44,361 nt of DNA. Origin: a virus. The number at the start of each line of letters is the position of its first letter. Position 1 is the first letter of the stretch. The stretch spans positions 1-44,361 of IMG/VR virus record IMGVR_UViG_3300020119_000128; one strand, given 5' to 3'. Positions 21,173-40,187 of the stretch are shown here, in pieces. The translations under genes were made by a program, and so were the position numbers. Below the pieces are notes generated by a model. It saw only the letters and a program-made list of their open reading frames with translations. It made no database searches and had not been told where the DNA came from.

Positions 21173-23523
21173 CGATATCGGAGGAGGGCAGGAAGGAGGT
21201 GGCGGCGCTGGTGCGTCCGCCGGAGCGGTTAAAGATATCGGAGTGGGCGCACAAGGAGGCGTGGATGCCGGAGGAGGGGAACGCGGAGCCGGGGCATTAC
21301 AGCCTGGCGCGAATGCCGCATCAGGAGGAGATGCTGGATGATCCGTTGGATCCGGATGCGCGTGAGATTTTCTGGATGATGGCAAGCCAGGCGGCGGGGA
21401 AGACGACGTGCCTGAATTTGATCACGGAGTACACGATCAAGGTTTGGCGGAAGTCGGTGCTGGTGGTGAGGGCGACGTTGGAAACGGCGCGGGAGTGGAT
21501 CAACGACAAGTTTTTGCCGATGACGGAGGCGACGCCGTGCATGAGGGGGCTTTTGAAGGATCCACGGGAGAAGGGGAGCCGGAGTTCGATGTTAAAGCGG
21601 CGGTTTCCGGGCGGGACATTGAAGGTGGCAGGGGCGAAGTCGCCGGCGACGTTTCGTGGGAGCAGCCAGGGGAAGGTTTACCAGGATGAGATCGATTCGT
21701 ACGAGGTGACGAAGGAGGGTGATCCGTGCGCTTTGGCGGACCGGGCGACGATCACGTTCAGCGATGCGACGAAGTTGAAGTGTTGCACGCCGACGATCAA
21801 GGGGTTTTCTAGGATCGAGGCGGGGTTCGAGCGCGGGGACCAGCGGTATTACTTCGTGCCGTGTGTTTGTTGCGGGCGGATGCAGTGGCTGAAGACGGAG
21901 CAGATGAAGTTCAGTTTTACGGCGGAGGAGTATGCGAGGTTTCAGAAACATCCAAGCACCAACATCCAAGCTTCCGCCTACGCTCAAAAGCAGCTTCGGC
22001 GCGACGAGCCAGAGAAGATCCAAGATCCAAACTTCAAGGGCCACCTCTCCCCTAACCCCTCTCCCCCAGGAGCGGAGAGGGGGACGGAAATGGCGGAGCC
22101 GAATACGAAGGAGTTTCAGGAGATAGCGAATGGATACAGGTGGCAGGTGGGGAATTTTGCGATCCGGGACACGAGGCGGTGCATTTATGTGTGCGAGGGT
22201 TGCGGGCGTGGCTGGACGGATCGGCAGCGGTTGGAGGCGTATTGGAGCGGCTGGCGGGAGAATCGGCCGGTGGTGGTGGACGGGGAGGAGCTGCGGGCGG
22301 CCTGGTGCCCGACGGCGGAGTTCAAGGGGATCCGAAGCCGGCACATTAACGGGATGTACCTGAGCATGGGGTTGAAAAAGGGGATGGTGAATTATTTGCA
22401 CCAGTTCGCGGAGGATTTCCTGGAGGCAGTTAAGGGTGGGCGGGAGACGTTGATGGTATGGACCAACATTTTCAAGACGGTGGCGTACGAGGATCCGCAC
22501 CAAAAGATTGCGTGGAAGGAGCTGAAGGAGCGGGCAGAGGATTATGTGGCGAGCGGCGATGAGGGGGCGGAGTTGCCGGCACAGGCGGTGTGGATTTGTT
22601 TCGGGGCGGACGTGCAGCAGGATCGGGTGGAGTTTTTGTTTTTCGGATGGGGGGAGGGGCAGGAGTGCTGGGTGTTGGAGTGGACGACGTTGAACGGGGA
22701 TTTCGACATGCCGAGCATGCAGAAGCGGGTACAGGAGTTCCTGGATAATAAACGGTTCAAGCATCCGGTGCTGGGTGAGCTGACAGTGAGCGCGGGGGCG
22801 TTTGATAGCGGGCATCAGACGCGGGTGAAAGCGGTGTACCAGTTTTGCGCGCGGAACACTTTTAAGAATTGGTGGAGTGTTAAGGGGTTTGATAACGCAT
22901 TGGGGGCGGTTTATCAGGTGGCGAAGGAGAAGGTTTATGGGGGGAAGCGGTTTAATCTGAATGTGGATTACCTGAAGACGGTGTTGTTCGATCGATTGTT
23001 GAACAAGGAGCCGGGGCCGCGATACATCCATTTCCCGAAGGAGGAGGTGACGGTGACTGATGCGCCGGCGGTGGCGGGCGGTGATCCGGTGAAGCGGGTG
23101 GTGCGGACGCGGTTCGGGGAGTTGTTTTACAACCAGTTGTGCAGCGAGAAGAGGGTGGTGGTGAAGACGGGCAAGAAGCCGAGGGAGGGATTTAAGCTGC
23201 AATGGGTGAAGGTGGTGAGTTCGGCGAGGAACGAGGTGCTGGATATGACGGTGTATGCGTTTGGGGTGTATGAGATATCGAGGCAGGAGGAGGCAATCGC
23301 GAGCAAGTGGAAGGAGGTGCAAGGAAAGCTCCAACATTCCGCCTACGCTCGAAAGCAGCTACGGCGGGACGAGCCAGGGGATGGCAAAGGGCAAATGGCA
23401 GATGGCAAAGAGGAGAGGAAAATTCCAACATCCAACATCCAACATCCAGAGAAGCACCAAGCTGCAGGGAAGCCGGGGAAGAAGAGGATCAGGATCAGGA
23501 GTCCGTTTGGGGGGTTTAGGTGA
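21169..23523 (+). CDS. Terminase large subunit, GpA family, with in-frame repeat insertions (784 aa)
   Basis: It packages DNA into proheads and cuts the concatemer. The Walker A-like segment is MASQAAGKTT (residues 70-80), Walker B is GKVYQDEID (about 168-176), and the nuclease part contains GAFDSGHQTR (about 545). A zinc-knuckle-like CVCCG and CEGCG pair lies between. GpA enzymes are about 600-700 aa; this one is longer because residues about 261-306 and 720-765 are encoded by dispersed repeats, including two copies of the 36-bp element in the same frame. The first insertion falls between ATPase and nuclease halves. GTG start overlaps the small subunit. Confidence 0.93.
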   Translation: MTISEEGRKEVAALVRPPERLKISEWAHKEAWMPEEGNAEPGHYSLARMPHQEEMLDDPLDPDAREIFWMMASQAAGKTTCLNLITEYTIKVWRKSVLVVRATLETAREWINDKFLPMTEATPCMRGLLKDPREKGSRSSMLKRRFPGGTLKVAGAKSPATFRGSSQGKVYQDEIDSYEVTKEGDPCALADRATITFSDATKLKCCTPTIKGFSRIEAGFERGDQRYYFVPCVCCGRMQWLKTEQMKFSFTAEEYARFQKHPSTNIQASAYAQKQLRRDEPEKIQDPNFKGHLSPNPSPPGAERGTEMAEPNTKEFQEIANGYRWQVGNFAIRDTRRCIYVCEGCGRGWTDRQRLEAYWSGWRENRPVVVDGEELRAAWCPTAEFKGIRSRHINGMYLSMGLKKGMVNYLHQFAEDFLEAVKGGRETLMVWTNIFKTVAYEDPHQKIAWKELKERAEDYVASGDEGAELPAQAVWICFGADVQQDRVEFLFFGWGEGQECWVLEWTTLNGDFDMPSMQKRVQEFLDNKRFKHPVLGELTVSAGAFDSGHQTRVKAVYQFCARNTFKNWWSVKGFDNALGAVYQVAKEKVYGGKRFNLNVDYLKTVLFDRLLNKEPGPRYIHFPKEEVTVTDAPAVAGGDPVKRVVRTRFGELFYNQLCSEKRVVVKTGKKPREGFKLQWVKVVSSARNEVLDMTVYAFGVYEISRQEEAIASKWKEVQGKLQHSAYARKQLRRDEPGDGKGQMADGKEERKIPTSNIQHPEKHQAAGKPGKKRIRIRSPFGGFR
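21973..22008 (+). repeat. 36-bp mobile element (copy 1)
   Basis: Runs from TCCGCCTACGCTC to GGCGCGACGAG. Removing it restores the uninterrupted host repeat CCAAGCT/CCAGAGAAG. It encodes SAYAQKQLRRDE-like residues in frame. Confidence 0.9.
22042..22084 (+). repeat. CACCTCTCCCC palindromic repeat (copy 1)
   Basis: CTCTCCCC and its complement GGAGAGGGG form the arms. Translated as HLSPNPSPPGAERGT in the terminase. Confidence 0.9.
23338..23373 (+). repeat. 36-bp mobile element (copy 2)
   Basis: Lies in the 3' part of the terminase gene, in the same translation frame as copy 1 (SAYARKQLRRDE). Excising it joins CCAACAT to CCAGGG, close to the usual repeat text. Further ATGGCAAAGGGC and CCAACATCC repeats follow to the gene end. 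Confidence 0.88.
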
Positions 23524-23610
23524 GCAGATGGAAGATAGGAGATCGAAGATAGAAAAGAGGGAGGCTTACCTTTTAGTATGTTAGCAAAGGTATATTACTA
23601 ATGAGTAAGC

Positions 23611-23958
23611 ATGGCTGACGGGAAAGGCATGAAGGGCAAAGCGTCGTTTGACGGCGGGAAGACGTGGTTCGAGGTGACGATCACAGGTCTGGAGAAATTG
23701 GTGCGTTGCCCGGCGTGCCTGGGGGTTACGCCGATTATCGATCGGTTCGATCATTCGAAGTTCACGACGTGCTCGGTGTGCGGCGGCCGGGGGAAAGTGA
23801 ATGAACTTTTTGGATTTCCGGTGGCGGAGGTGGAGCTGCCGGCGGGTGTGAGGTGCGCGATAGTCGAGGAGGGTTTTGAGGGGGCGGTTTTGTTGATGGA
23901 GGATGGGCGGGTTTTGAAGTGGCGAAGGAAAGGGACGAATTTCAAATTTGAGATTTGA
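23611..23958 (+). CDS. DnaJ-type zinc-finger protein (115 aa)
   Basis: ATG 23611. Two CxxC motifs, CPACLG and CSVCGGRGK (residues 30-60), resemble the CxxCxGxG repeats of the DnaJ central domain. The rest is beta-rich (VAEVELPAGVRCAIVEEGF). The last residues TNFKFEI come from an ATTTGA repeat. An imperfect inverted repeat (GCTTAC near 23564 and GTAAGC near 23604) with TATATT lies just upstream and may hold its promoter. Zinc-finger proteins of this size occur near head genes, but the role is unknown. Confidence 0.6.
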   Translation: MADGKGMKGKASFDGGKTWFEVTITGLEKLVRCPACLGVTPIIDRFDHSKFTTCSVCGGRGKVNELFGFPVAEVELPAGVRCAIVEEGFEGAVLLMEDGRVLKWRRKGTNFKFEI

Positions 23959-23977
23959 GATTTGAAAGGGGGAAAAA

Positions 23978-23993
23978 GTGACCAATTGGTCAC
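23978..23993. repeat. 16-bp palindrome (copy 3), between convergent genes
   Basis: Perfect copy in the 42-base gap between the zinc-finger gene and the minus-strand Acb2-like gene, seven bases from the latter's stop. Confidence 0.9.
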
Positions 23994-24000
23994 AATCCGA

Positions 24001-24243
24001 TCATCCATTGCGGGCGATGGCGGCGTTGGCCCACATGACGGAGTTTTCGAGATGGGTCATGGCGAGGGCTTTTTCGCGGGAGCTGGGGCAGTGGGCTTCG
24101 ATGAGGTAGGCGAACTCTTTGGCTTTGGCGCGAAGGAGTTCGTAGAGCTCGGGCTGGCCGGGCCTGGGCGGGTGGTAGCGGAAGTTGTTTTCGATTGCGG
24201 GGTTGCCGGTGACGGGAGTGGGAGCGGGGATCGCGGTGCTCAT
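24001..24243 (-). CDS. acb2: Acb2/Tad1-hairpin-domain protein, probable anti-CBASS nucleotide sponge (80 aa)
   Basis: ATG 24243, stop 24001. After a 20-residue proline-rich leader come FRYHPPRPGQPELYELLRAK, AYLIEAHCPSSREKALAMTH and LENSVMWANAAIARN, a close fit to the short helical-hairpin family that includes Acb2 (T4 Vs.4 type). Acb2 forms compact hexamers that bind the cyclic di- and trinucleotides made by CBASS defence, stopping effector activation; related proteins also bind Thoeris signals. It lies alone on the minus strand between packaging genes with its own promoter, as an acquired defence-evasion gene would. Nucleotide binding itself is inferred from the family. Confidence 0.88.
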   Translation of the reverse strand: MSTAIPAPTPVTGNPAIENNFRYHPPRPGQPELYELLRAKAKEFAYLIEAHCPSSREKALAMTHLENSVMWANAAIARNG

Positions 24244-24250
24244 GGATGGG

Positions 24251-24292
24251 ATTATATGGAGGGGGCAAACATTGTCACGCCGGCGTGACAAT
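24251..24292 (-). promoter_or_regulatory. Strong promoter of the Acb2-like gene with 22-bp palindrome
   Basis: On the minus strand GTGACA (24278-24273) and a perfect TATAAT (24256-24251) are 16 bases apart. The -35 lies within a perfect 22-bp palindrome (24271-24292, half-site ATTGTCACGCC). The -10 ends seven bases before ATG 24243, so the transcript may be leaderless. A protein on the palindrome would shut the promoter. Confidence 0.7.
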
Positions 24293-24413
24293 GTTTTGGT
24301 GCGCCTGGCCGGCGCGACAAGGGGGGGGCGCCGCCAGGGGAATAGCCGATAGCCAATAGCCAATAGCCAAGGGGAGCGAGGACGAATGGGGGCTTTGACT
24401 TGGGGGGGTAGGC
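24293..24413. repeat. Repeat-filled gap: AATAGCC run and element fragment
   Basis: Contains GCCGGCGCGACAAGG, a fragment like the end of the 36-bp element, a G-run, and AATAGCCGATAGCCAATAGC repeats. No gene is seen on the plus strand before GTG 24414. Confidence 0.75.
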
Positions 24414-25025
24414 GTGAGTCAAAGTATTCCAGGAAGAGAGCCGGTGGAGATCGCGGCGGGTGATACGCTGCAGTTTCGGCGAAGTTTGCCGGGGTTCCGG
24501 GCGGATGAGGGTTGGAGCCTGGTGTATGAGTTGAGGAGCGGTCCGATGGCGGGGCCCGCGATTGAGTTTGTGTCAACGGCGCAGGGGGCAGACCACGTGA
24601 TAACGGTGGCGGCGGCGGTGACCGGTGCCTGGCTGGCTGGTGAGTATGTGTTTGCGGGGTATGCGGTCAGTGGGGAGGAACGGCATCAGATCTACCTGGC
24701 GACGTTAACGGTGACGCCGGATGAGGTGGCGGCGGCTGCTGATGAGCCGCAGAAGACGTTTTCCCAACAGATGTTGGAAAAGATCGAGGCAGTGCTGCTG
24801 GGGAAGGCGAGCGAGGATATTTTGGAGAGCCGGGTTGGAGATACGTTGTTCAAGTATCTGACGCCGGCACAGTTGAGGGAGGAGCACGGGTATTGGACGA
24901 TCGCAAGGAGGGTGGAGATCGCCAAAGAGAACGCGAGGAATGGGAGGCCGACGGGGAACAAGATCCGGATGGTGGCGAATGTGACTGGTGGAACGGGGGG
25001 ATGGGGAGGGGTGAGACCTTTCTGA
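24414..25025 (+). CDS. Head-region protein between terminase and portal (203 aa)
   Basis: GTG 24414. The first 105 residues form a beta-sandwich-like part (AAGDTLQFRRSLPGF ... WSLVYELRSGP ... QIYLATLTVTP). It is followed by a helical part (FSQQMLEKIEAVLLG) and LREEHGYWTIARRVEIAKEN. This two-part layout recurs at the same place, between terminase and the gpW-like gene or portal, in many lambda- and Mu-like phages. It may serve as a head completion or connector component; function is not settled. Confidence 0.65.
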   Translation: MSQSIPGREPVEIAAGDTLQFRRSLPGFRADEGWSLVYELRSGPMAGPAIEFVSTAQGADHVITVAAAVTGAWLAGEYVFAGYAVSGEERHQIYLATLTVTPDEVAAAADEPQKTFSQQMLEKIEAVLLGKASEDILESRVGDTLFKYLTPAQLREEHGYWTIARRVEIAKENARNGRPTGNKIRMVANVTGGTGGWGGVRPF

Positions 25026-25091
25026 TGAAAAGCTGAAATCTGAAAGGGGAAATGGCCACAAAAGAGCACAAAGACCACAAAGGGGGGAATT
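25026..25091. repeat. Repeat-filled gap: CTGAAA run and ATGGCCAC repeat
   Basis: GAAAAGCTGAAATCTGAAAG is followed by ATGGCCACAAAAGAGCACAA (from 25051). The ATG of the repeat opens no long frame here; the next gene starts at 25092. Confidence 0.8.
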
Positions 25092-25388
25092 ATGGCGTCT
25101 GAGTTTCGATCGGCGAAGGAGCTGCAGAAGGAGAGGGAGTGGAAGGGCTTGGAGATCCGGGCGTTGAGGGCGTTGATCGAGATGCACGCGGCACAGCAGG
25201 CGTACGTGACGGTGCGTCCGGGGGGAACGAGCCGGCTGACGTTTACGAACGAGGAGTTGATAACGGCGATGAGGAGTTACGATCACCATATCGGGAGTGT
25301 GGCGAAGCATTTCAATGTGAGCCGGGGGTGCATTTATAACCGGTTACGCGAACTGCCTCCTGGGGCGACGGACAAAGTTGAAAGCTGA
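25092..25388 (+). CDS. Small HTH protein in the head module (98 aa)
   Basis: ATG 25092 follows GGGGGGAATT. Residues 6-40 are a charged helix (SAKELQKEREWKGLEIRALR). Residues about 66-92 (HIGSVAKHFNVSRGCIYNRL) are a clear helix-turn-helix. Position before the portal is where gpW-type joining proteins lie, but the HTH argues for DNA binding. The last residues come from a CTGAAA repeat. Confidence 0.6.
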   Translation: MASEFRSAKELQKEREWKGLEIRALRALIEMHAAQQAYVTVRPGGTSRLTFTNEELITAMRSYDHHIGSVAKHFNVSRGCIYNRLRELPPGATDKVES

Positions 25389-25456
25389 AAAACTGAAACG
25401 CTGAAATGAGGGGAATTTTTTACAGCTAATCTTCGCTAATAAACGCTGATAAAGGC
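25389..25456. repeat. Repeat-filled gap: CTGAAA run and GCTAATC repeat
   Basis: GCTGAAAAACTGAAACGCTG then TTTTTACAGCTAATCTTCGC and an AAACGCTGAT end. No gene. Confidence 0.8.
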
Positions 25457-25786
25457 ATGAGATTTGAACGGTTAAGGGAGTTGAGGGAGAAGAGCGCGCC
25501 GATGGTGGCCCAGGCATTGACGGTGGATGAGTGCGATGTGGTCCGGCATGAGGCGGCGTTTGTGCTGGGGGATAGTTTTGCGCAGGTGCCGGAGATGGAG
25601 GGGGTGTTGATCCGATCGGCGCTGAATGACAGTTCGGTGTTGGTGCGGCATGAGGCGTGCCTGGCGCTGGCGAAGTTCAAGACGGTTAATGCGCTGCGAG
25701 CGCTTCTGGAGTGCATGAAGGATGCGGCGCCGGAGGTGAGGGGCTCGGCGGCGTACGCGGTAGAGGAGATGATGTTTTCGAAATGA
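25457..25786 (+). CDS. HEAT-repeat protein (109 aa)
   Basis: ATG 25457. Three helical repeats of about 31 residues are visible, each with a (V/L)RHEA or VRGSAAYA core: DVVRHEAAFVLGDSF, VLVRHEACLALAKF and PEVRGSAAYAVEEM. These are PBS-lyase-type HEAT repeats, a protein-binding solenoid. It overlaps the portal gene as ATGA, so stoichiometry is tied to it. Such a protein is not a usual part of head modules; a scaffold or chaperone for portal assembly is one possibility. Confidence 0.75.
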   Translation: MRFERLRELREKSAPMVAQALTVDECDVVRHEAAFVLGDSFAQVPEMEGVLIRSALNDSSVLVRHEACLALAKFKTVNALRALLECMKDAAPEVRGSAAYAVEEMMFSK

Positions 25787-27609
25787 AGTTTTCACTTTCG
25801 TTGTTTGAGAAGAAGGGGGCGGAGGCCGCGGCGGCGGCGCCGGCGATCAGGTATCCGACGGGGAGGGCGTTGAGGTCGAGCAGGGTTCTGCCGCGGGATG
25901 CGGGTGTGTTGCGGGCGGTGAACCGGAAGATGATGCGGATGTACGAGGCGGCGGTTAGCAATAACCTGAACGCGGATTTCCCGACGAATATTTCGAGCGC
26001 GAACGCGGAAATTTTCGGGAGTTTGCTGGCGACGAGGTCGCGAGCGAGGACGTTGGACCGGGATAACCCGTACGCATGGGCGATCCTGGAGTCGATGCGG
26101 GTGAATGTGGGCGGGCATGAGCCGTTCCGGCTGGAGATGAAGGTGGGGCAGAAGACGGCGGAGGGTGAGTTCATCGAGGAGCTGGACGTGAATGATGAGA
26201 TCGAGGAGGCGTGGGCGGAGGCTGGGTTGCCGGAGAATTGCACAACGACGGGTGATATCTCGAGGTTGGAGCTGGATCTGCAGGCGATCACGGCGATGGT
26301 GCGGGATGGAGGAATTTTGGGGAAGCATTGGCGGGGGTTTCCGTTCAACGATTTCCGGTATGCGATCCAGCCGCTGGAGTACGACCGGCTGGATCATTAT
26401 TGGAACGGGAAGAATCCGCAGAATGGGAATGATATCAAGATGTCGGTGGAGACTGACCCGAGGTGGGGCGGGCGGGTGGCGGCGTATTGGCTGCTGACGA
26501 AGCATCCGGGTGATTATTTTTATATTGGGAATTTCAAGCAGGGGTACCGGGAGCGGGTGCCGCGGGAGGATTTGATCGCGTTGTTCGATTTGCGGACTCG
26601 AGCGGAGCAGGTGACGGCAGTGAGCCGGTTTGCATCGATCATCCAGCGGCTGCATCGGATCGATCAGTTCGACATTGCGCATGTGACGGCGGCGATCTGG
26701 GCGAGCTGCAAACCGTTTTTCATCACGCAGGAGTTTCCGACGGCGATGGAGTATGTGCCGGATTTCATCAAGACGGCGATGCAACGGGCAATGGAGGCGG
26801 GGGATGACGGGGCCGGGGATGGGGACAAGACGAGCACAGCAGAGCCAGGGACGGGTGAGGTGTTGCCGTGGGGGCAGAAGCCGATCCTGGTGGATCCGAA
26901 GTTTCCGATCGAGGCAGCGGCGGGTTTTAAGAAGGATAACTTGCGGGCGGCGGCGGCGGGGAGTGGAACGGCGTATCACCAGATCGGGAACGACCTTGAG
27001 GGAGTGAATTTTTCGAGCGGGAGGCTGGGGGAGAATGCTTTCCATGATTCGTGCAAGATTTTGCAGGAGCATTTTGTGCTTGGGTACCGGCGGCCGCATT
27101 TCAATGCGTGGCTGAGGAGTTATTTGTTGAGCGAGCGGACGAAGTTGCCGATAGCCAGGTGGGAGGAGTTTTGCAAGGCGGCGAAGTTCCACGGGCGGCG
27201 ATGGCCGTATGTGAATCCGTTGCAGGATGTGCAGGCGGCGATATTGTCGATCGATGCGGGGTTAACGAGCCGGGATTACGAGATCCAGAACAGTGAACGG
27301 GGCGGGGATGTGCATCGGGTGAACGCCGAAGTGTGCGCGGGGAAGGTGAGTGATGAGGCGCATGGGTTGAATTTCGATGCGGAGGATCAGGCCACCCGCG
27401 TCACCGAGTCCACCGGGGAAGCAGAGGACGCGAAGGGCGGTGACGCGGAAAATCCAAATTCCAAGCACCAAGCTCCAGAGAAGCCCCAAGCATCAAAAAA
27501 GGGGAGCAAGCAATCGATTGGGCCGGGGGCGAGGAAGCCGAGTGTGAGCAGAGCCTTGGGGAGGATGAGGCAGTTTCGGGAAGCGACGTATTTGAATGGG
27601 GAGCACTGA
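25783..27609 (+). CDS. Portal protein, lambda B-like (608 aa)
   Basis: ATG 25783 overlaps the upstream stop. Portal dodecamers form the DNA channel at one capsid vertex. Family marks are the early RNRKMMRMYEAA-like helix (VNRKMMRMYEAA), RARTLDRDNPYAWAILES, GDYFYIGNFKQGYRERVPRE, and VTAVSRFASIIQRLHRIDQF, followed by the C-terminal WRSYLLSERTKL-like region. Length 608 aa is slightly above lambda B (533). Residues about 565-585 (NPNSKHQAPEKPQASKK) are encoded by the CCAAGCACC repeat, in frame near the C-terminus where they should project from the core. Confidence 0.9.
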   Translation: MKFSLSLFEKKGAEAAAAAPAIRYPTGRALRSSRVLPRDAGVLRAVNRKMMRMYEAAVSNNLNADFPTNISSANAEIFGSLLATRSRARTLDRDNPYAWAILESMRVNVGGHEPFRLEMKVGQKTAEGEFIEELDVNDEIEEAWAEAGLPENCTTTGDISRLELDLQAITAMVRDGGILGKHWRGFPFNDFRYAIQPLEYDRLDHYWNGKNPQNGNDIKMSVETDPRWGGRVAAYWLLTKHPGDYFYIGNFKQGYRERVPREDLIALFDLRTRAEQVTAVSRFASIIQRLHRIDQFDIAHVTAAIWASCKPFFITQEFPTAMEYVPDFIKTAMQRAMEAGDDGAGDGDKTSTAEPGTGEVLPWGQKPILVDPKFPIEAAAGFKKDNLRAAAAGSGTAYHQIGNDLEGVNFSSGRLGENAFHDSCKILQEHFVLGYRRPHFNAWLRSYLLSERTKLPIARWEEFCKAAKFHGRRWPYVNPLQDVQAAILSIDAGLTSRDYEIQNSERGGDVHRVNAEVCAGKVSDEAHGLNFDAEDQATRVTESTGEAEDAKGGDAENPNSKHQAPEKPQASKKGSKQSIGPGARKPSVSRALGRMRQFREATYLNGEH

Positions 27610-27640
27610 CTAACACGGACGGGCACGGACGGATAGAAAA

Positions 27641-27656
27641 GTGACCAATTGGTCAC
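27641..27656. repeat. 16-bp palindrome (copy 4), containing the stop of the minus-strand gene
   Basis: Perfect copy between the portal end and the small minus-strand gene. The TGA of that gene (27655-27653) lies inside the palindrome. Confidence 0.9.
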
Positions 27657-28002: not shown

Positions 28003-30168
28003 ATGGCGACGGATAGGTTGTATCGGTATGTGGCGGTGGATCGGGCGAAGATCGACCGTGGGGCGAGGACGGTGCCGGTTAGTTTTTCGAGCGAGACGCC
28101 GGCGTTGCAACGGTGCGAGGGTCTTTCGGAGGAGATGATGCGATCGGCAGGCCTGCGGGAGGGAGAGGTGTATGTCGAGGTGCTGGATCACGAGCCTGAG
28201 AATGTGGATTTGTCGTTGTTGAACAACCGGGGCGCCTTCCTGGATGAACACGACGACAAGGACCAGCTCGGGGTGGTGGAACGGGCGGAGGTGGTGGAGC
28301 GGCAGGGGCGCGCGATCGTAAAGCTGGATACTCACGAGAAGGCGGAGACGCGGCTGGAGCAGATGGCGAACAACAGCCGGCCGCATATTTCGGCGGGGTA
28401 TAAGTACACGCGGTTTTTGCGGGATGAGACGGGGCCGAACGGGCGGAAGGCGAAGCGGTTTGCGTGGAAGGGGTTGGAGATCAGTTCGGTTGCCATTCCC
28501 GCCGACGCAACAATTGGAGTTGCCAGGGCGTATCAGGATTTGCCGGCAGAAATTCCAAGCACCAACCTCCAAGCTCCAGAGAAGATCCAAACTCCAAGCA
28601 CCAATAGCCACCTCTCCCCTAACCCCTCTCCCCCAGAGGCGGAGAGGGGGACCAGAGCGGGAGTGGTTGACTCGATTGAAGGGGCGAGTGCTAAGCACAT
28701 TTTTGAAAAACTGTCCGATGAACAGAAACGAGGTATGAGAAATCTTTTTGGGGGAGTGTTGGCTACCATATTGCTTGATCCGAATCCGGCTGCCGGCGGC
28801 GGTGGCGCCGCGGTGGTGGATGAAAAGGTTGTGCGCGCCGACGCGCTAAAGCTGGAGCGGCAACGGGCCAAGGAAATCGGGGATATCGCCGATGCATTGA
28901 TCAAGGATCATGGCGCCAAGGATGGGGGAAAGCTGGCGGAGAAGATCCGGACAATGGCGCGCGAGGCGCTGGCGAAGGATGAAGGGGTGCAGGATTTCAA
29001 GGTTCGGTGCATGGAGGATGTGCTGAAGGCGAAGCCGGCGAAAGCGGTGATGATCGAGGAATGCACGGATGATCCGGAGCAGTATTCGCTGATGCGCGGG
29101 ATCCAGAGCGCGGTGAAGCGGAAGGAGCAGGGGATGAGCCCGATTCCGGACGGCCGGGAGGGAGAGGTTCACCAGGAAATTTTACGCCGGAGCAAAGAGT
29201 TCGGCGGGCTGGGTTATGAAGCCGAAGGGTTTCAGGTGCCGGCGAATGCGCCGATGCGGGTGGGGATGACCAGGTCAGCGAGCCGCCGGATGCAGCGGGA
29301 CATGCAGGCGACGGTGTTCAACGCGGGCGGTGCTTTCGTGCCGACGCAGTTGCTGCCGGGGGTGATCGAGCTGCTGCGCAACGCGATGGTTTTGGACCGG
29401 GTTGGGATGCGGGTAATGGCGGGCCTGCAGGGGAACATTCTGATTCCCCGGCAAGAGGCGGCTTCGACTGCTTATGCGGTCGCAGAAATCGCCGCATTGA
29501 CCGCAAGCCAACAGATTCTCGGACAAATTGCGCTTTCGCCGAAACGGGTGGGAGCGACACAGACGTACTCGAAGCAGTTCATCATGCAGTCTTCGCCGGA
29601 TGCGGAAGCGTTCATGCGGGATGACATGCTGAAGGTGATCGCGCTGGCGTGGGACCGGTTCGGTTTGAACGGCCAGGGCGCAGCGAGCGAGCCGCTGGGA
29701 ATTATGAACACGCCGGGGATCGCGAGCGTCGTGTTCGGGGCAACGCCGACGTACATCAAGCTGCTTTCGATGCGGACATCGCTGCGCAAAGCGAACGTGA
29801 CGGATGATCTGACGCTATTGAGCACGCCGGCGGTAGAAGGATCTCTTTCGGGAGTGGCCGAAGCGCTGACGGGGGCGACGACGGTGGGCGGCGCGCAGAA
29901 TGCGATCTGGAAACCGGGCGCGAGCCAGGGCGAGGGCCGGGTGATCGGGTGTCCGGCGATCGCGAGCAACCAGGTGCCGAATGACCAGGTGATCCTGGGG
30001 GCTTTCACACATTTGATCCATGCGCTGTGGGGCGGACTGGATGTAGTGGTGGATCAGTTCACGAAGGCTGGGAACGCCGAGACGGTTATCACGTTCAATA
30101 CGTGGGGTGATTTTGTGGCGCGGCATCCGCAGGCTTTCTGCGTGTCGGCTGACAGCGGCGCACAATAA
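28003..30168 (+). CDS. Prohead protease fused to HK97-type major capsid protein (721 aa)
   Basis: Residues 1-180 are a prohead protease: LDHEPENVDLSLLNNRGAFL with the histidine region, and GLEISSVAIPAD with the candidate catalytic serine. Residues about 185-217 are repeat-encoded linker (PSTNLQAPEKIQTPSTN, then HLSPNPSPPEAERGT). Residues 220-390 are charged and helical, like an HK97 delta/scaffold domain. Residues 400-721 are the capsid fold (AGGAFVPTQLLPGVIELLRN, GLNGQGAASEPLGIMNTPG). The protease should cut itself and the scaffold during maturation. Fused protease-capsid genes are known; the repeat linker is the oddity. Confidence 0.9.
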   Translation: MATDRLYRYVAVDRAKIDRGARTVPVSFSSETPALQRCEGLSEEMMRSAGLREGEVYVEVLDHEPENVDLSLLNNRGAFLDEHDDKDQLGVVERAEVVERQGRAIVKLDTHEKAETRLEQMANNSRPHISAGYKYTRFLRDETGPNGRKAKRFAWKGLEISSVAIPADATIGVARAYQDLPAEIPSTNLQAPEKIQTPSTNSHLSPNPSPPEAERGTRAGVVDSIEGASAKHIFEKLSDEQKRGMRNLFGGVLATILLDPNPAAGGGGAAVVDEKVVRADALKLERQRAKEIGDIADALIKDHGAKDGGKLAEKIRTMAREALAKDEGVQDFKVRCMEDVLKAKPAKAVMIEECTDDPEQYSLMRGIQSAVKRKEQGMSPIPDGREGEVHQEILRRSKEFGGLGYEAEGFQVPANAPMRVGMTRSASRRMQRDMQATVFNAGGAFVPTQLLPGVIELLRNAMVLDRVGMRVMAGLQGNILIPRQEAASTAYAVAEIAALTASQQILGQIALSPKRVGATQTYSKQFIMQSSPDAEAFMRDDMLKVIALAWDRFGLNGQGAASEPLGIMNTPGIASVVFGATPTYIKLLSMRTSLRKANVTDDLTLLSTPAVEGSLSGVAEALTGATTVGGAQNAIWKPGASQGEGRVIGCPAIASNQVPNDQVILGAFTHLIHALWGGLDVVVDQFTKAGNAETVITFNTWGDFVARHPQAFCVSADSGAQ
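28555..28652 (+). repeat. Composite repeat insertion inside the protease-capsid gene
   Basis: A CCAAGCACCAACCTCC repeat, a partial second copy and a CACCTCTCCCC palindromic repeat (28609-28652) lie in frame between the protease and scaffold parts. The order is the same as in the terminase insertion, without the 36-bp element. Confidence 0.9.
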
Positions 30169-30219
30169 CCGGAACCAGACAGGATTTTTTAACCGCTAAT
30201 CTTCGCTAATAAAGACAAA
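30169..30219. repeat. Repeat-filled gap: CCGCTAATC repeat
   Basis: TTTTTTAACCGCTAATCTTC and CGCTAATAAAG fill most of the gap before ATG 30220. No promoter seen. Confidence 0.8.
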
Positions 30220-32616: not shown

Positions 32617-32706
32617 AAAAAAGCTCCAACATCCAACATCCAAGCTCCAGAGAAGATCCAAAATCCAAACTTCAAACTTCTAGCGAGGCCTGGGATAGTG
32701 AGGCCG
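32617..32706. repeat. Repeat-filled gap: CCAACATCC family
   Basis: CTCCAACATCCAACATCC, AAGCTCCAGAGAAGATCC and AAATCCAAACTTCAAAC follow one another. An ATG at 32613 opens a frame that is wholly repeat text and is not called. Confidence 0.8.
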
Positions 32707-33132: not shown

Positions 33133-33148
33133 GTGACCAATTGGTCAC
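33133..33148. repeat. 16-bp palindrome (copy 5)
   Basis: Perfect copy in the 71-base gap before ATG 33177, here between genes on the same strand. Confidence 0.9.
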
Positions 33149-33176
33149 AAGTGGGCGCTGACTTGGGCGCAGGGAT

Positions 33177-34406: not shown

Positions 34407-34409
34407 GCC

Positions 34410-34832: not shown

Positions 34833-34839
34833 TCTTCTT

Positions 34840-35577
34840 ATGCACGAGCTGGCCTTTGCCGACGCGGCGCGGCAAGCGCCGTGCGTTATCCTTGGGTTGG
34901 GGATGCGTCCGTTTTCAATCGGACACGAGATCCTGTTGCTGGCTCAAAGGAATCCACTGGTCTTCATCGAGGAGGAGTTCAATAAGCTACCGAAGGAGGA
35001 AAGGATCGCGGCGATCAAGAGGGCGGCGCTGATCTGCAACTCGAGCTGGAGGGAGAACGGCCGGCCGCAAAAGAATGTGCGGTTGTGGAATTGGATGACG
35101 CGAGGGGCGCATTGGGCGCTGGAAATTGCGGAATTTCGCAATTATCGGATGGCGGGCTCGAGCACGCCGGCGTCGCCAAGCCAGGAGAATTACGAGATCG
35201 CCAATGGATTGCAGAATGAAGAGGGGGGGCGTGAGTTTGGCGGGTGCCACCTGGCGCGAGTGCTGGCGTATGTGAGCTGCAGGGGAATGTTTTCGGCGTT
35301 GGGAGCGGAGACGCCGTATGACGTGCCGCTGGGCCTGGGGAATCATTTGTATCTGACGGCGTTGGAGATCGAGGGGCATTACCGGATCGAGAATCGGCGG
35401 GAGGCGCAGGTGAGGGAGGAGATGGAGCAACACCGCAGGGAGATTGCGAAGGAAAAAGCTGAAAGCGGAAAGCTGAAAACTGAAATAAAAGGCCGCCTCT
35501 CCCCTAACCCCTCTCCCCCACCTGAGCCAGGCCTGCCACCGGCGGAGAGAGGAACCGAACAGGGAGGAACCGAATAA
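34840..35577 (+). CDS. Putative tail assembly chaperone-type protein (245 aa)
   Basis: ATG 34840. A helical protein with LGMRPFSIGHEILLLAQRNP near residue 20, a start I have seen in phage proteins lying before the tape measure. Residues about 205-245 are repeat-encoded (KAESGKLKTEIKGRLSPNPS ... GLPPAERGTEQGG): a CTGAAA run and a CACCTCTCCCC palindromic repeat. Its stop overlaps the tape-measure ATG (TAATG). No -1 slippery frameshift site is evident between it and the next gene. Confidence 0.5.
   Translation: MHELAFADAARQAPCVILGLGMRPFSIGHEILLLAQRNPLVFIEEEFNKLPKEERIAAIKRAALICNSSWRENGRPQKNVRLWNWMTRGAHWALEIAEFRNYRMAGSSTPASPSQENYEIANGLQNEEGGREFGGCHLARVLAYVSCRGMFSALGAETPYDVPLGLGNHLYLTALEIEGHYRIENRREAQVREEMEQHRREIAKEKAESGKLKTEIKGRLSPNPSPPPEPGLPPAERGTEQGGTE
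35493..35555 (+). repeat. CACCTCTCCCC palindromic repeat, variant (copy 3)
   Basis: GCCTCTCCCCTAACCCCTC with an inserted GAGCCAGGCCTGCCACCGG before the closing GGAGAGAGGAACCG arm. Encodes the C-terminus of the chaperone-type gene. Confidence 0.85.
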
Positions 35578-36887
35578 TGCCGGCATTGATGGCAGTGATA
35601 TCGGGGACGTCGGTACCGCTAAAGCGGGAGATGGATGATGTGATGCGGGCAGCCAGGCGGGCGGGAATGGTGCTGGAGGAGAATTTGAATCCGAAGGGAG
35701 GCGGGCATGGGGGCCCGCTGAAATCGGGGGTGATTCGAGAATTGCTGGTTTTACTGCGGGAGATTGGGAGCGGCAACTGGACTCGGGTACCGGGAAGCTT
35801 GAGCCTTTTGATTCAGCGGATGGGGATGCTCAAGTTTTTGATCAATCCGATTACGATCGGTTTTGTGGCGATGGGAACGGCGGCGTTTTTCGTGATACGG
35901 CACTTCATGAAGTTGCGAGAGGAGGCGAAAAACCTGGCGGACCTGATGGATATAACGACGATCAAATTTTCCGAGCAATCGGCGCTGATGAAAAAGTCGA
36001 TCCAGGAGGCGCAAGCGTTTAACGATTGGCTAAGGAACCTTGGAAAGTCGGAACAAAATCTGGGAGATCAAATCCAAGAAACGCTAAGGGGAATGCGCGA
36101 GAAAGCGCGTTTGGAACGCGAACTGGCAGCAGAGGGCGGTGCGAGCAAGAAGAAATTGGCGGACATGGATATTGCCGAGCTTCAGAAGGAAGTACACATC
36201 CTGGAGGTCGCGAAAAGGGAGGCGCACAGACAGATCGAGCGCGATAAGCGGCTTACGGCGGATGCCGAGAAGAGGAGAAATGATGTTACACGCGAGGGAC
36301 AGCTTAAAAAGGCCAGCGATAGCGCGGCGGAGATGGCCCGAATCGTAGATGCGCTGAAAGAAAAGGTTAAAACGCAAAGGATATCGGAGTTGGGGGTTAC
36401 GGCCACCGGAGACGATGTGATGATCGCGCGCGAAGCAACGGCGGAGGATGTTTTTAGCGTCAATGTCGGAGGCAAGGATTGGCATATGAGTCAGCGCCAG
36501 GCGGAGGAGAGACACAAAGAGTTGGAAGCGGCCGAACTGCGGTTGGCGCGAGAGCAGAAGGGCCTTGCTGACACCGTCGAAGCCCGCAAGAAAAAATCCC
36601 AGAAGGACGAAGCCGAAGAAGCTCGGGTGAATAAAGAATTGAGAGAGGCCAGAACAGACCTCCGCCTAAAACAACAGTACTTGCCGAAATTGGCAGAGGA
36701 GGCGGTGCGGTCGCGGGTGTTGCATGGGAATGTGACGTCGTTGCAGGGGGTTGGCGGGTACACGAGCCCGGCGTCGATCGCGCTGATTGATACGGCGAAG
36801 AAGAGCGAGCATCACCTGAAAACGATCAGGGACCATGTGGTGAGCCGCGCGCACGCCGGCAGCGGGATGAGGAGAGGGAAATTCTAA
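35577..36887 (+). CDS. Tape measure protein (436 aa)
   Basis: ATG 35577 overlaps the upstream stop. One hydrophobic segment (residues 87-111, LINPITIGFVAMGTAAFFVI) is followed by about 250 residues of charged coiled coil (EKARLERELAAEGGASKKKL, KKSQKDEAEEARVNKELREA). These two features, gene order and its being the longest gene before the baseplate set mark it as tape measure. At roughly 1.5 angstrom per residue it would set a tail of about 65 nm, short for a siphophage. Codon use is more even in the coiled part than in neighbours. Confidence 0.75.
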   Translation: MPALMAVISGTSVPLKREMDDVMRAARRAGMVLEENLNPKGGGHGGPLKSGVIRELLVLLREIGSGNWTRVPGSLSLLIQRMGMLKFLINPITIGFVAMGTAAFFVIRHFMKLREEAKNLADLMDITTIKFSEQSALMKKSIQEAQAFNDWLRNLGKSEQNLGDQIQETLRGMREKARLERELAAEGGASKKKLADMDIAELQKEVHILEVAKREAHRQIERDKRLTADAEKRRNDVTREGQLKKASDSAAEMARIVDALKEKVKTQRISELGVTATGDDVMIAREATAEDVFSVNVGGKDWHMSQRQAEERHKELEAAELRLAREQKGLADTVEARKKKSQKDEAEEARVNKELREARTDLRLKQQYLPKLAEEAVRSRVLHGNVTSLQGVGGYTSPASIALIDTAKKSEHHLKTIRDHVVSRAHAGSGMRRGKF

Positions 36888-37681
36888 TGGATCTGAGAGC
36901 GAAGATAAAAGGGAGCCTGCTGCCTTATTTGCAGAATGAGGTCTGGGATTTCGACCCGATCCGGGGGTACATCCACAGCTTCAATTTCAAGGGGGCGAGC
37001 CAGCCGGCGATGCTGGGCCTGCAGCAGGATTTCGTGAGGGCCGGAATTGCGTGCCGGCTGATCTATCACCAGGGGGAGACGGCCGGGCTGGAGGTGGAGG
37101 ATGGGACGCAGCAGTACACGATCGATCAATGGCAGATTTTGGGGAATGAGGAGAGGCCGGATTGGATGCTGCATCCGACGGTTCAAGCGCTGGTGATTAG
37201 TGATGAGATCCAGGACGACTTTGGAACGATGCGACAGGGATTGCTGGATGGCACCGGCGGCGATCAGCTTTTTGAGAATGGCGGACCGGTGGACTATCTG
37301 CAGGGTGGCCCGGTGGACCGGATGTACCGGCAGGCGCTGGCGGGGGATACGGCGTTTCTACGGCCGCAGTACGTGCTGAGGCACACGACGAATGCGCCGA
37401 ACCGGTGGGCGGTGAACATTGCGGATTTCGGGATCGAGAAAATTTATACGCCGGCGCAGCTTTTAAGCGAGGCGCAGAGTTCGGCATTGTGGATATTTCC
37501 TTTGCCGGCACGACTGGCTTACAAGATCGCGAACATTGAGGCGCCGACTTTCCAGCCGTTTTATCAATGGGGCTGGCTGAAGCAACCGAGCACGGAGACG
37601 AATGCGCCGCATAACCGAATCGAGATCGCGCAGGAGTATATCCTGTATCAGTGGAGCACGGATAAGTACGAACCCTATTAG
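36887..37681 (+). CDS. Baseplate / distal tail protein candidate (264 aa)
   Basis: ATG 36887 overlaps the tape-measure stop (TAATG). The protein is rich in aromatic residues (VWDFDPIRGYIHSFNFKG, QPFYQWGWLKQP) with mixed strands and helices. It is the first gene after the tape measure, where the distal tail protein normally lies. No domain is recognised with certainty. Confidence 0.55.
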   Translation: MDLRAKIKGSLLPYLQNEVWDFDPIRGYIHSFNFKGASQPAMLGLQQDFVRAGIACRLIYHQGETAGLEVEDGTQQYTIDQWQILGNEERPDWMLHPTVQALVISDEIQDDFGTMRQGLLDGTGGDQLFENGGPVDYLQGGPVDRMYRQALAGDTAFLRPQYVLRHTTNAPNRWAVNIADFGIEKIYTPAQLLSEAQSSALWIFPLPARLAYKIANIEAPTFQPFYQWGWLKQPSTETNAPHNRIEIAQEYILYQWSTDKYEPY

Positions 37682-37762
37682 GAGATGGAAGCTAGAAGAT
37701 AGGAGATAGGGAAGAATCGGAATGGCCACAAAAGAGCACAAAGTTCACAAAAAGGGAGAACG
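37682..37762. repeat. Repeat-filled gap: AGATAGGAGATAG and ATGGCCAC repeats
   Basis: AGCTAGAAGATAGGAGATAG is followed by ATGGCCACAAAAGAGCACAA. The same AGATAGGAGAT text occurs near 23530. Confidence 0.8.
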
Positions 37763-38386
37763 ATGAAGGGGTTTTTGCCACCAAGGCCGGATGGGGATGA
37801 TGAGGAGTTTCTGTATCATCAATCGATCTGGGATCGAGTGCATGGACCGGCCGGACAGATCAACTCGAGTAACACGGTCATTGCGGAGAGGACGACGAAG
37901 GGAATCCGGTTGCGAGCGGCTGCAGGGGGCGGGGCGCAGTTCAGACTGCGGCTTTGCAAGGTAACGACGTTGTTCGAGGAGGATTATATCGGGGTGAAGT
38001 TGTGGAACCCGCTGGCAAACGATGGGGATGGTGATTTTGTGGGGCGTGAGTTTTTGGTGGCGAAGAGTATTCCGAGCCGGATGCCGGATGAGGAGACGAT
38101 TGACCAGGATCTGATCGATTACACGTACGCGGATGATCCGGATGCGGATAATTACCGGAAGGCGCACCTGGCTGGGGATGATCCGAGCGAGTTCGAATGG
38201 CAGGTGGTGCATCCAAGGTACGTGGATGATGATCCGGACAACGGGCAGGAGGGGGATTTGATCATCGTGGCAAAGGTGAGCAACGGGACGGGGGTGTTGG
38301 ATCAGGATGGGAAGCAGATCTATTTCGTGGAGCTGCAGCCGTGCCGGTATTGGGCGAAGCAGTTTTCGCAATCAGGCCCACCCTGA
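37763..38386 (+). CDS. Baseplate or fibre-associated protein (207 aa)
   Basis: ATG 37763 after AGGGAGAACG. Beta-rich and very acidic in the middle (YADDPDADNYRKAHLAGDDP, RYVDDDPDNGQEGDLIIVAK), suggesting calcium-binding loops or a secreted-type fold. Short protein in the baseplate region; no family recognised. Confidence 0.55.
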   Translation: MKGFLPPRPDGDDEEFLYHQSIWDRVHGPAGQINSSNTVIAERTTKGIRLRAAAGGGAQFRLRLCKVTTLFEEDYIGVKLWNPLANDGDGDFVGREFLVAKSIPSRMPDEETIDQDLIDYTYADDPDADNYRKAHLAGDDPSEFEWQVVHPRYVDDDPDNGQEGDLIIVAKVSNGTGVLDQDGKQIYFVELQPCRYWAKQFSQSGPP

Positions 38387-38526
38387 TTTTTTACCGCTAA
38401 TCTTCGCTAATAAACGCTGATGAAAAGCCACCTCTCCCCTAACCCCTCTCCACCAGAGGTGGAGAGGGGGACCGGCAAGGCTACGCGCGAGTCGGGCCTG
38501 CGATCAGCGGAGAGGGGGACCGAAGT
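38387..38526. repeat. Repeat-filled gap: CCGCTAATC and CACCTCTCCCC repeats
   Basis: TTTTTTACCGCTAATCTTCG and AAACGCTGATG are followed at 38429-38521 by the palindromic repeat and its second module (GCGCGAGTCGGGCCTGCG, then CGGAGAGGGGGACCG). Confidence 0.88.
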
Positions 38527-39279
38527 ATGAGTGAGACGATTTTGGAGAGTCCGTATCGGGCGTTGCAGGAGACGCGGGCGTTTGCGCTGGATACAGGCGG
38601 CAAAAGCGGAGTGATCTTTTGCGCGCATTGTTTTGCGTACGTGCGGACGGGAATACTGCTTCAGACGCAGGACCCGACGGATGGCCTGGGTATCGATGCG
38701 TTGATGCAGCAGGATCATTTGCAGATCGGCTTGCGAATGAATGCGCATGGGGCTGATCCGATGCCGTTCCATGATCAGTTGGGTTTTCCCCAACCGATCG
38801 AGAATTTTTATTCGGTGGTGTCGAGGGGTGATTTCCAGTGGAGAATCCGGCGGAAGGGTTACAACGTGGAAGCGGAGTTGAGCGGGTCATCGCTGGTTTA
38901 TACGCGGTTGCGGGATGCTATCGAGCTGGTGAAGGGGTTTGCGGTGTATCCGAAGGATTTTACTTCCGGCAGCCCTGGGGCGGAGGTGCGGGAGACGAAG
39001 CTGGGGGCCAGCCTGGCTCTTTACCTGAAGGGGACGAAGGGGATCGTGGCGATTCATCCGCCAGGGGCGTTTCCGTTGCTGGAGCCGGCGACGTCGGCAA
39101 CGGTCGTGAACCTGGCTGCGAGCGCGACGGCGGCGGACATGGCGGCGCTGGATGGAAGGTTCAACTTTTCGTGCGGGCCTGATGAGGTGTTGGTGTTTTG
39201 GATCGGGAAGCAGGATCCGGGGACGTTGCCGGATGCGGAGTTTGATCCGAGGGATAAGAAGTTGAAGTTGGTGTACTGA
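38527..39279 (+). CDS. Baseplate-region protein (250 aa)
   Basis: ATG 38527. A well-folded mixed protein (FALDTGGKSGVIFCAHCFAY with a CAHC pair, FYSVVSRGDFQWRIRRKGYN, DEVLVFWIGKQDPGTL). The two cysteines near residue 35 could bind zinc, but no second pair is close. Gene order places it in the baseplate or fibre set. Not recognised. Confidence 0.55.
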   Translation: MSETILESPYRALQETRAFALDTGGKSGVIFCAHCFAYVRTGILLQTQDPTDGLGIDALMQQDHLQIGLRMNAHGADPMPFHDQLGFPQPIENFYSVVSRGDFQWRIRRKGYNVEAELSGSSLVYTRLRDAIELVKGFAVYPKDFTSGSPGAEVRETKLGASLALYLKGTKGIVAIHPPGAFPLLEPATSATVVNLAASATAADMAALDGRFNFSCGPDEVLVFWIGKQDPGTLPDAEFDPRDKKLKLVY

Positions 39280-39437
39280 GGGGGAATTTTTACCGCCCGC
39301 CTGCGCTCAAACGCAGCTCCGGCGCGACAAGCTAATCTTCGCTAATAAGCGCTAATCAAAACCACGGAAGCCCGATTACGAGGACGAGGACGAGAACGAG
39401 GACGAGGGGGAGGGTTTGACTCGGGGCGTTGGGGGAA
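39280..39437. repeat. Repeat-filled gap: CCGCTAATC repeat carrying a 36-bp element, and GAGGAC run
   Basis: TTTTTACCG is cut by the 36-bp element and resumes as CTAATCTTCGCTAATAAGCG. A GATTACGAGGACGAGGACG repeat follows at 39373. Confidence 0.9.
39296..39331 (+). repeat. 36-bp mobile element (copy 3)
   Basis: Begins CCCGCCTGCGCTC and ends GGCGCGACAAG. Excision restores ACCG/CTAATC, the exact uninterrupted repeat. Confidence 0.93.
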
Positions 39438-40079
39438 GTGGCGGATCTCAAGTTATTCAATAATATCTCGAATAATACGCTGGTTGCCGGGCAGAAGAGC
39501 ACGCAGCCGGTGGATCCGTCGAGCCTGCCGCTGTACTTCGGGGACACGCTGAACCTGATCATTTACCTGTTGCAGATCCCGACGGGGTATAACGCGCAGG
39601 ATCCGAGCAATTCGACGCTGGAGACGGTGACGACGGCCGGATTGCAGCTTTTCCTTTACCTGGATGATGGGGTGGTGGGAGGGACGATCTACACGCAGCA
39701 GGTGGCTTTCGCGACGGATCCAACGAACTCGTACTTTTACGGAACGCTGGCGTTGAACACGCCGGCCTTGCAGACGTTGCTGGGGACGAATACGAGCGCG
39801 CCCTGCTGGTTGAAGATGGGGTACGTCCAGAACGGGGTGCAGACGACGACGTTGAGCAAGCAGGTAACGATCGGCGTGGGGATCCCGGTGGGGGCGTTGG
39901 TGGTACCGGCGGGGTTGACGCCGTTGAGCCAGGAGGTGGCACAGGCTGAGTTTTTCCCACTGCAGCCGAAGGCGGGGCTGGCGCTGTACCTGGAGAGTCC
40001 AAACGGGAAGATCATCGCGGTGGTCGCGGTGGATAATCCGGATGGGACGGCGAGCCTGCAGGCGAACCCGGTTAATTAG
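39438..40079 (+). CDS. Fibre or baseplate protein (213 aa)
   Basis: GTG 39438; a TTG at 39429 is an alternative. The sequence is beta-rich and rich in Thr, Asn and Gln (TLNLIIYLLQIPTGYNAQDP, LGTNTSAPCWLKMGYVQNGV, LYLESPNGKIIAVVAVDNPD), typical of phage adhesion proteins. The order before two long fibre genes supports a fibre-attachment role. No exact family. Confidence 0.6.
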   Translation: MADLKLFNNISNNTLVAGQKSTQPVDPSSLPLYFGDTLNLIIYLLQIPTGYNAQDPSNSTLETVTTAGLQLFLYLDDGVVGGTIYTQQVAFATDPTNSYFYGTLALNTPALQTLLGTNTSAPCWLKMGYVQNGVQTTTLSKQVTIGVGIPVGALVVPAGLTPLSQEVAQAEFFPLQPKAGLALYLESPNGKIIAVVAVDNPDGTASLQANPVN

Positions 40080-40187
40080 CCACGAAAGAACGCAAAGAAC
40101 ACAAAGGAAAACCAAAACTTTTTACCGCTAATCTTCGTCCGCCTGCGCTCAAAAGCAGCTCCGGCGCGACGAGCTAATAAAAACCTA
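40080..40187. repeat. Repeat-filled gap: GCCACGAAAG and CCGCTAATC repeats with 36-bp element
   Basis: AGCCACGAAAGAACGCAAAG precedes TTTTTACCGCTAATCTTCG, which is cut by the element and resumes CTAATAAAAAC just before ATG 40188. Confidence 0.9.
40138..40173 (+). repeat. 36-bp mobile element (copy 4)
   Basis: Begins TCCGCCTGCGCTC and ends GGCGCGACGAG. Excision restores CTTCG/CTAATAA exactly. The site differs from that of copy 3 although the host repeat is the same. Confidence 0.93.

Follow-up and report, generated by a model that had tools for sequence, protein, structure and literature searches.

A REP-like hairpin element inserted into the repeats of a phage genome, and its relatives in bacteria

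Introduction

The smallest candidates for mobile DNA include the REP-like hairpins, and how these spread is unsettled. According to PMC8266576, the REP transposases are HUH enzymes: TnpA-REP of E. coli cuts single-stranded REP at CT, an enzyme from Marinomonas accepts CA as well, and the E. coli REPs require a bulge in their stem. The CGTC REPs, as defined in PMC3733652, have a stem of 8-9 bp starting with almost invariable A-T pairs, a loop of 4-5 bases and a CCA tail, and dimers of some families were inserted into larger palindromes. Here we analyze a 36-base element that is present several times in a virus record of 44361 bases (IMGVR_UViG_3300020119_000128; this whole stretch of DNA is called the window in the following), including two copies inside the gene for the terminase large subunit. 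The initial annotation of the window had proposed four clean insertions of a mobile element into other repeats. On balance, we consider it probable that the 36-mer represents a subfamily of a widespread REP-like hairpin element, which would be moved as a single strand and in trans by an HUH single-tyrosine (Y1) enzyme.

Results

Copies of the element in the phage genome

The copies of the element, the repeats that they interrupt and the terminase gene are located as follows.

1584..1613, plus strand: short copy of 30 bases (TCCGCCTTCGCC-AAGCTCCGGCGCGACAAG); deletion restores no known repeat (5 mismatches in 20)
7028..7063, plus strand: fifth 36-base copy, overlooked in the initial annotation; 2 mismatches to the consensus, left flank ending in CAACAT, 6 mismatches on deletion
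21973..22008, plus strand: 36-base copy within the terminase gene; it interrupts a repeat at CCAAGCT^CCAGAG, and the joined flanks equal 32637-32656 exactly
23338..23373, plus strand: 36-base copy where the terminase gene encodes its C-terminal tail, between CCAACAT (left flank) and CCAG (right flank); empty-site test failed
39296..39331, plus strand: 36-base intergenic copy splitting TTTTTACCG^CTAATCTTCG; 1 mismatch in 20 against the empty copy at 9669
40138..40173, plus strand: 36-base intergenic copy splitting CTAATCTTCG^CTAATAA, the same repeat as at 39296 one unit further on; 1 mismatch in 20 against the empty copy at 30196
21945..21972, plus strand: left half of the interrupted CCAAG-family repeat (repeat families D4 and D9); empty relatives at 8494-8549, 28549-28604 and 32620-32675
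22009..22085, plus strand: right half of the interrupted CCAAG repeat, then a CACCTCTCCCCTAACCCC repeat (family D2); translated within the terminase
9670..9713, plus strand: uninterrupted (empty) reference copy of the TTTTTACCGCTAATC repeat (families D6 and D12); others at 25417, 30187, 33747 and 38388
21169..23523, plus strand: terminase large subunit; GpA-like ATPase at residues 39-257, nuclease at residues 408-706

The four copies recognized initially, those from 21973 onwards, were recovered with 36 bases each and with the proposed ends, and they deviate from the 36-base consensus at 0, 1, 2 and 0 positions. A chance origin of the phage copies is excluded, because the best match to the consensus in 50 simulated sequences still had 11 mismatches.

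For the empty-site test, the 10 bases on each side of a copy were joined and the rest of the window was searched for the joined text. Three of the six phage copies passed, with 0 mismatches in 20 for the copy at 21973 and 1 each for those at 39296 and 40138; with up to 4 mismatches, the joined flanks are met at five places for 21973 and at seven for 39296. The copies at 23338 and 7028 (6 mismatches each) and at 1584 (5) failed. The initial statement that deletion restores an uninterrupted repeat at each of four sites could thus be confirmed at 21973, 39296 and 40138 and not at 23338, where the likeness to the CCAAG family is limited to CCAACAT in the left flank and CCAG in the right flank. When the right end alone was shifted by 1-8 bases in either direction, at least 3 mismatches arose in each of the three passing copies, and of 400 random deletions of 36 bases in the phage, five left no more than 2 mismatches. 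The absence of a target duplication, also part of the initial proposal, is directly visible in the phage.

The phage loop type, C[AG]AA[AC]GCAGCT (CAAAAGCAGCT-like), occurs in none of the 223 copies outside the window. Since it is absent there, the phage copies appear to form a local subfamily that was amplified in the phage or in its host line.

Within the terminase, the element encodes residues 269-280 and 724-735, outside the ATPase and nuclease domains. As annotated initially, both copies are translated in one common frame (SAYAQKQLRRDE and SAYARKQLRRDE). This in-frame reading carries little weight, because all three forward frames are free of stops in each of the six phage copies. Being free of forward stops and 36 or 30 bases long, the element can be tolerated in coding sequence, including the terminase. 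The repeat-coded terminase stretch is mostly lacking in four distant homologues, two of which have a short linker at this place. With the terminase as query, no close relatives of the phage were found in viral_contigs and none in 288 genomes of the Verrucomicrobiota phylum at E 1e-30; the relatives among phages amount to 443 records, which are distant and all below 60% identity. The stretch that is mostly lacking in the four homologues is encoded at 21945-22110, where a CCAAG repeat, the element and a CTCTCCCC repeat are arranged in succession and in frame.

Distribution of the family

Outside the phage, the family text TCCGCCTnCGC-loop-AGCTnCGGCGnGACRAG corresponds to an imperfect, end-tagged hairpin. 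It was searched with the looser pattern CCGCCTNCGC-N(1-16)-AGCTNCGGCGNGACRAG. The search for the 36-mer recommended in the initial annotation had a divided outcome: the exact phage 36-mer was detected neither in viral_contigs nor in the INPHARED phages, from which the window's own and near records may be omitted, and the looser pattern gave 2 matches in viral contigs and at least 117 matching stretches in genome_contigs. A search of viral_contigs for the CTAAT target in its uninterrupted form gave no match. Carriers among the matches listed comprise Opitutaceae, Kiritimatiellae, Lentisphaeria, Akkermansia, Bradyrhizobium, Devosia, Micavibrio and Desulfohalobiaceae, furthermore Acidobacteriota, Sedimentisphaerales, Elusimicrobia, Sumerlaeia, Marinimicrobia and several candidate-phylum bacteria; Verrucomicrobiota and deltaproteobacteria are both represented. 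Isolates are included, and many carriers are metagenome-assembled genomes, in which single assignments may be due to contamination. Two Streptomyces matches in one common context may be a coding coincidence.

The looser pattern matched 7 of 120 genomes of one family and its reversed version 0 of 120; a further reversed-pattern control in 17 genomes also gave 0. A broader pattern matched 55 of 387 genomes of the Verrucomicrobiota phylum, with about 212 matches vs about 17 for the reversed pattern, both totals having been added up by hand. The occurrence is patchy and the copy number usually low, with expansions for instance in the genomes G017 (78 copies), G342 and G368 (17 each). De-duplication reduced 114 copies to 80 (34 dropped) and the broad set from 167 to 118 (49 dropped); mostly one amplified Lentisphaeria context was removed in this way, together with some true self-nests in genome G307. 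No description of the element was found in the open literature, including searches for TCCGCCTTCGC and CCGCCTTCGC, with closed papers and figures outside the search; a listing among the family consensus sequences in Figures 1 and 2 of PMC3733652 is possible.

Boundaries, junctions and hairpin structure

The constancy of CCGCCT and GACRAG among these copies follows by construction from the search pattern. The first base, which the pattern left free, is T in 72 of the 80 copies. Similarity stops at the element ends, and the flanks are unrelated among the public copies. Target duplications are not enriched in the family either: 3-base duplications flank 1 of 80 copies (1.08 expected) and 2 of 118 in the broad set (1.50 expected), and 4-base duplications are absent from both (0/80 and 0/118).

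The dinucleotide C(A/T) stands directly before the element in 38 of 80 copies, compared to a random mean of 8.7 and a maximum of 18 in 2000 draws; in the broad set it is 58 of 118 vs 12.9 at random (maximum 25). Directly behind the element it was counted in 10 of 80 and 14 of 118 copies. The junction persists after removal of all copies with element-like right flanks (48/105). This is a preference, not a rule, and the flank pattern had been tabulated before it was compared with the TnpA-REP cut dinucleotides given in PMC8266576.

The element measures about 29-44 bases. Its ends pair as CCGCC/GGCG; further inward lie a 3x3 internal loop and then the apical part, which has 1-16 bases. The stem begins with C-G pairs and the 3' neighbour is not CCA. 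In the apical part, the second pair is complementary in 33 of 47 copies with at least 5 apical bases (20.1 after shuffling) and the third in 15 of 20 longer copies (7.6 after shuffling), values that were reached by 0 of 2000 shuffles. The 3' end of the top strand, GACRAG (R is A in 66 and G in 14 of 80), corresponds to CTYGTC on the other strand, and it is this CTYGTC strand that folds better as DNA in 76 of 80 copies (mean -6.9 vs -5.7 kcal/mol).

With respect to genes, 37 of 51 public copies with a near upstream open reading frame (ORF) are situated 3' of a co-oriented ORF. According to a simple ORF caller, further copies are found inside ORFs, 15 in the same and 17 in the opposite direction. 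The initial annotation had compared the in-frame behaviour with that of the Rickettsia elements and had suggested a test for an in-frame excess over one third; as a property of the family, such behaviour is not supported. Of the 118 de-duplicated public copies, 46 have a length divisible by three, 48 leave a remainder of 1 and 24 a remainder of 2. A multiple-of-three length was found in 14 of 32 copies within ORFs of at least 150 amino acids compared to 46 of 118 overall, which is no clear bias in a count made by hand with a crude ORF caller.

Insertion targets in bacteria

Empty sites were also searched for the public copies, within 1.2 Mb of loci and with all copies masked. Under these conditions, a further occurrence with at most 2 mismatches exists for the joined flanks of 15 of 80 copies, vs 3 of 400 swapped junctions and 7 of 400 random deletions. 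An unmasked count of 21 of 80 (swapped 29/240, random 5/240) was dropped as inflated, because element-like right flanks had matched filled copies.

Several single sites illustrate the targets. In Bradyrhizobium (L059), the element is situated in the loop of a GTAG-tagged hairpin, of which an exact empty copy exists in another locus (L052). It splits the palindrome CTCTCCCCGC^GCGGGGAG in L016, sits in a GTCAGGAGTCAGG tract in L051, and lies inside a ATTCCGGC...GCCGGAAT hairpin in L022, which in our reading of its sequence fits the CGTC-REP description in PMC3733652. On a Komeilibacteria contig (L080, 1077-1106 and 1131-1205), an intact tRNA-Thr is closely preceded by a partial tRNA-like copy, which the element interrupts at ATAGCT^CAGTGG. 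Palindromes scoring at least 7 are centred on 8 of 80 junctions compared to 1.4% of 4000 random places.

The element is also inserted into itself. The nesting site is AGCT^WCGGCG, and the signature of such a self-nest, a right flank like the element 3' half together with a left flank ending in CT, GT or TT, is present in 12 of 118 copies vs 50 of 20000 random places; four of the 12 are weak cases at the limit of 4 mismatches. The clearest site lies beside tRNA-Met in Bradyrhizobium, and the query for this site had a match in each of 117 genomes of the genus. The following counts cover 72 sequences (30 search loci, 40 fetched and two seeds), not all 117. Element-like text directly after GTCAA was seen in 30 of 72 and GCAAAG-type text in 39, some of these with an element further along; the remaining 3 show other states, one of them masked by Ns. 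A whole element inside an older element at AGCT^ was found in 9 of 72, and in L240 the nesting had occurred twice, resulting in a triple nest. L248-L250 and L254 have no element at this site. Filled and empty forms cannot be aligned perfectly because of the divergence of their right flanks, and any order of the empty, filled and nested states is inferred. The initial proposal of a mobile element with clean insertion is strengthened by the public genomes, in which the boundaries are the same, empty sites exist and the element nests in itself.

Other features of the phage genome

The window carries a direct terminal repeat.

1..127, plus strand: direct terminal repeat, identical to 44235-44361 (repeat family D11)

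The identical 127-base ends suggest a complete genome, whose gene content includes a GpA-type terminase, a portal and a head protein. Seven repeat families were counted across the window, with 8 copies each of CTAAT, CCAAG and GCTGAAA, 7 of ATAGCC, 6 each of CACAAAG and CTCTCCCC, and 5 of the element; example sites are 8494, 9670, 35454, 24330, 11721 and 28606. All 48 of 48 repeat copies are on the plus strand. This bias, as well as the co-orientation with ORFs in bacteria, may result from transcription, replication or selection.

In addition, the palindrome TGACCAATTGGTCA occurs five times (2633-2646, 10537-10550, 23979-23992, 27642-27655 and 33134-33147, one copy with a mismatch) with 0.01 expected, and is a candidate operator of a phage regulator. 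A 9-base tandem repeat with about 34 registers at 14872-15300 overlaps the ORF 14716-15951 and would represent a three-codon protein repeat if this ORF is a gene. Three near-perfect 23-base tandem units at 16818-16898 lie directly before and at the start of the ORF 16878-17876.

Discussion

Because CT and CA are the dinucleotides cut by REP transposases, we favour a REP-like element that travels as a single strand with the help of an HUH (Y1) enzyme. The tagged strand consists of the 5' tag CTYGTC followed by the imperfect hairpin with its 3x3 internal loop. As a single-stranded hairpin it could be cut and rejoined in trans by a Y1 transposase of the REP/IS200 kind, the cutting taking place at CT or CA dinucleotides, preferably in an unpaired target strand such as hairpin loops on a single-stranded template. 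The phage might have acquired its copies in the host and then amplified one loop type. Neutral sites, i.e. repeats as well as the linker and tail of the terminase, would tolerate such insertions, because the copies have 36 bases and no forward stops. The hairpin, its boundaries and its insertions are established by the data. Given the interrupted stem, the tag, the lack of duplication and the adjoining C(A/T), the action of a Y1 enzyme in trans is the most economical inference, not a demonstration. In this regard, Y1 transposase genes were present in 25 of 26 carriers compared to 16 of 26 non-carriers, the carriers having been picked by copy number and not at random.

Several findings speak against this interpretation. 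Movement of the element was never seen. The association with Y1 genes may reflect the general load of mobile DNA; none of the 20 Y1_Tnp loci that were read, among many matches in 41 genomes, carries an element copy, and no Y1 match was obtained in G368 with its 17 copies. Furthermore, C(A/T) precedes only one of the six phage copies (21973), palindrome centres account for a minority of the public insertions, and the fold of single phage copies is unexceptional (z -0.10 to -1.73), therefore the structural case rests on the family.

Some of these observations would be expected if the hairpin spread by accidents of replication at hairpins and short repeats, such as template switching or mispriming, without any transposase. 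Such events would likewise favour repeats, palindrome centres and the element itself as targets, they need no enzyme linked to the element (0/20 Y1 loci) or encoded in a 17-copy genome such as G368, and they could be in line with the orientation bias of the phage repeats. However, template switching should vary the end points, whereas in unrelated flanks and lineages the ends are fixed and free of duplications; the C(A/T) junction, too, remains when the element-like right flanks are taken out. We regard this explanation as unlikely, and as the rival that survives best.

It might also be supposed that no insertion took place at all and that the phage repeats are a modular mosaic of short units joined at their boundaries, with the 36-mer as one more unit. 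The three phage insertions at unit boundaries of degenerate repeats and the half repeat on each side of the copy at 23338 are compatible with such a mosaic. In bacteria, however, the element has the same ends while its flanks are unrelated and non-modular, and it is also found at the centres of palindromes, within a partial tRNA copy and nested in itself; the rarity with which random 36-base deletions restore a repeat in the phage (5/400) points in the same direction; we therefore consider a mosaic improbable. Just as little can be said in favour of a transcription terminator or another selected RNA hairpin that was spread by descent and recombination. The location downstream of co-oriented ORFs (37/51) and the retained pairing in the loops would suit such a function, but the element has no T-run, the window contains no Rfam match at gathering scores, copies also occur within ORFs in both directions, and the flanks are mostly unrelated among carriers. 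The reverse scenario named in the initial annotation, with the longer text as ancestral and the short forms as precise deletions, is highly improbable: slippage can delete hairpins, but empty forms outnumber filled ones in the phage, deletion cannot produce one element text with the same ends at many unrelated sites, as seen in the bacterial flanks, and the self-nests require an insertion step.

Beyond the REP-like element moved by a Y1 enzyme, a wider interpretation can be put forward tentatively, at slightly less than even weight. The copies might belong to a superfamily of mini-hairpins that is undescribed, extends across phyla and looks autonomous, its targets being unpaired regions in other hairpins, including REPs of both known superfamilies and their own internal loop. 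They would nest like Russian dolls at fixed chromosomal sites and also colonise phages, where the essential genes that they enter, such as that for the terminase, would remain functional. The exact ends, a target preference matching the cut dinucleotide of REP transposases, and one Bradyrhizobium site with coexisting empty, filled, nested and triple-nested states mean that the movement of an element of 30 bases can be tested directly. Moreover, a phage can carry and apparently multiply a REP-like hairpin element, even inside its terminase gene.

Comparison with known systems

The small dispersed repeats of cyanobacteria reported by Elhai et al. (2008, Genome Research) are said to be very small, mobile and inserted into other repeats; the present element differs from them in sequence and hosts. 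The Rickettsia palindromic elements are also palindromic and sometimes found within genes, but they have about 150 bp and are mostly in frame within genes, according to PMC10969869, whereas our element is without clear in-frame bias.

In common with the IS200/IS605 family, as portrayed in PMC8266576, it shows no target duplication, hairpin ends, strand specificity and insertion just 3' of a short target. In contrast to this family it consists of one hairpin instead of two, has no transposase gene, and uses a target of two instead of four or five bases.

With the GTAG REPs of the TnpA-REP/RAYT systems (PMC8266576), the element shares the form of a small hairpin (20-50 bases), in which one end bears an unpaired tag and the stem is irregular, and the location between genes and at 3' ends. 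The C(T/A) that precedes many copies of our element is the cut dinucleotide of TnpA-REP. Unlike these REPs, the element carries the tag CTYGTC in 80 of 80 copies (as fixed by the search pattern) with no GTAG seen, its copies are mostly single, and it inserts into REPs and itself; an arrangement like the REPtron, with a transposase flanked by copies, was not found in the 20 Y1 loci.

The CGTC superfamily (dRS3, RPE-4, RPE-6; Di Nocera et al. 2013) has the tag CGTC/TGTC, to be compared with CTCGTC/CTTGTC here, and is reported from Bradyrhizobium and Micavibrio without a dedicated transposase (PMC3733652). However, the stem of our element starts with C-G and lacks the CCA tail, contains a 3x3 internal loop and has an apical part of widely varying length, and the element nests in itself. 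It is REP-like by kind and without a description in the open literature that was searched, being set apart from the GTAG and CGTC superfamilies by features of its tag or its stem.

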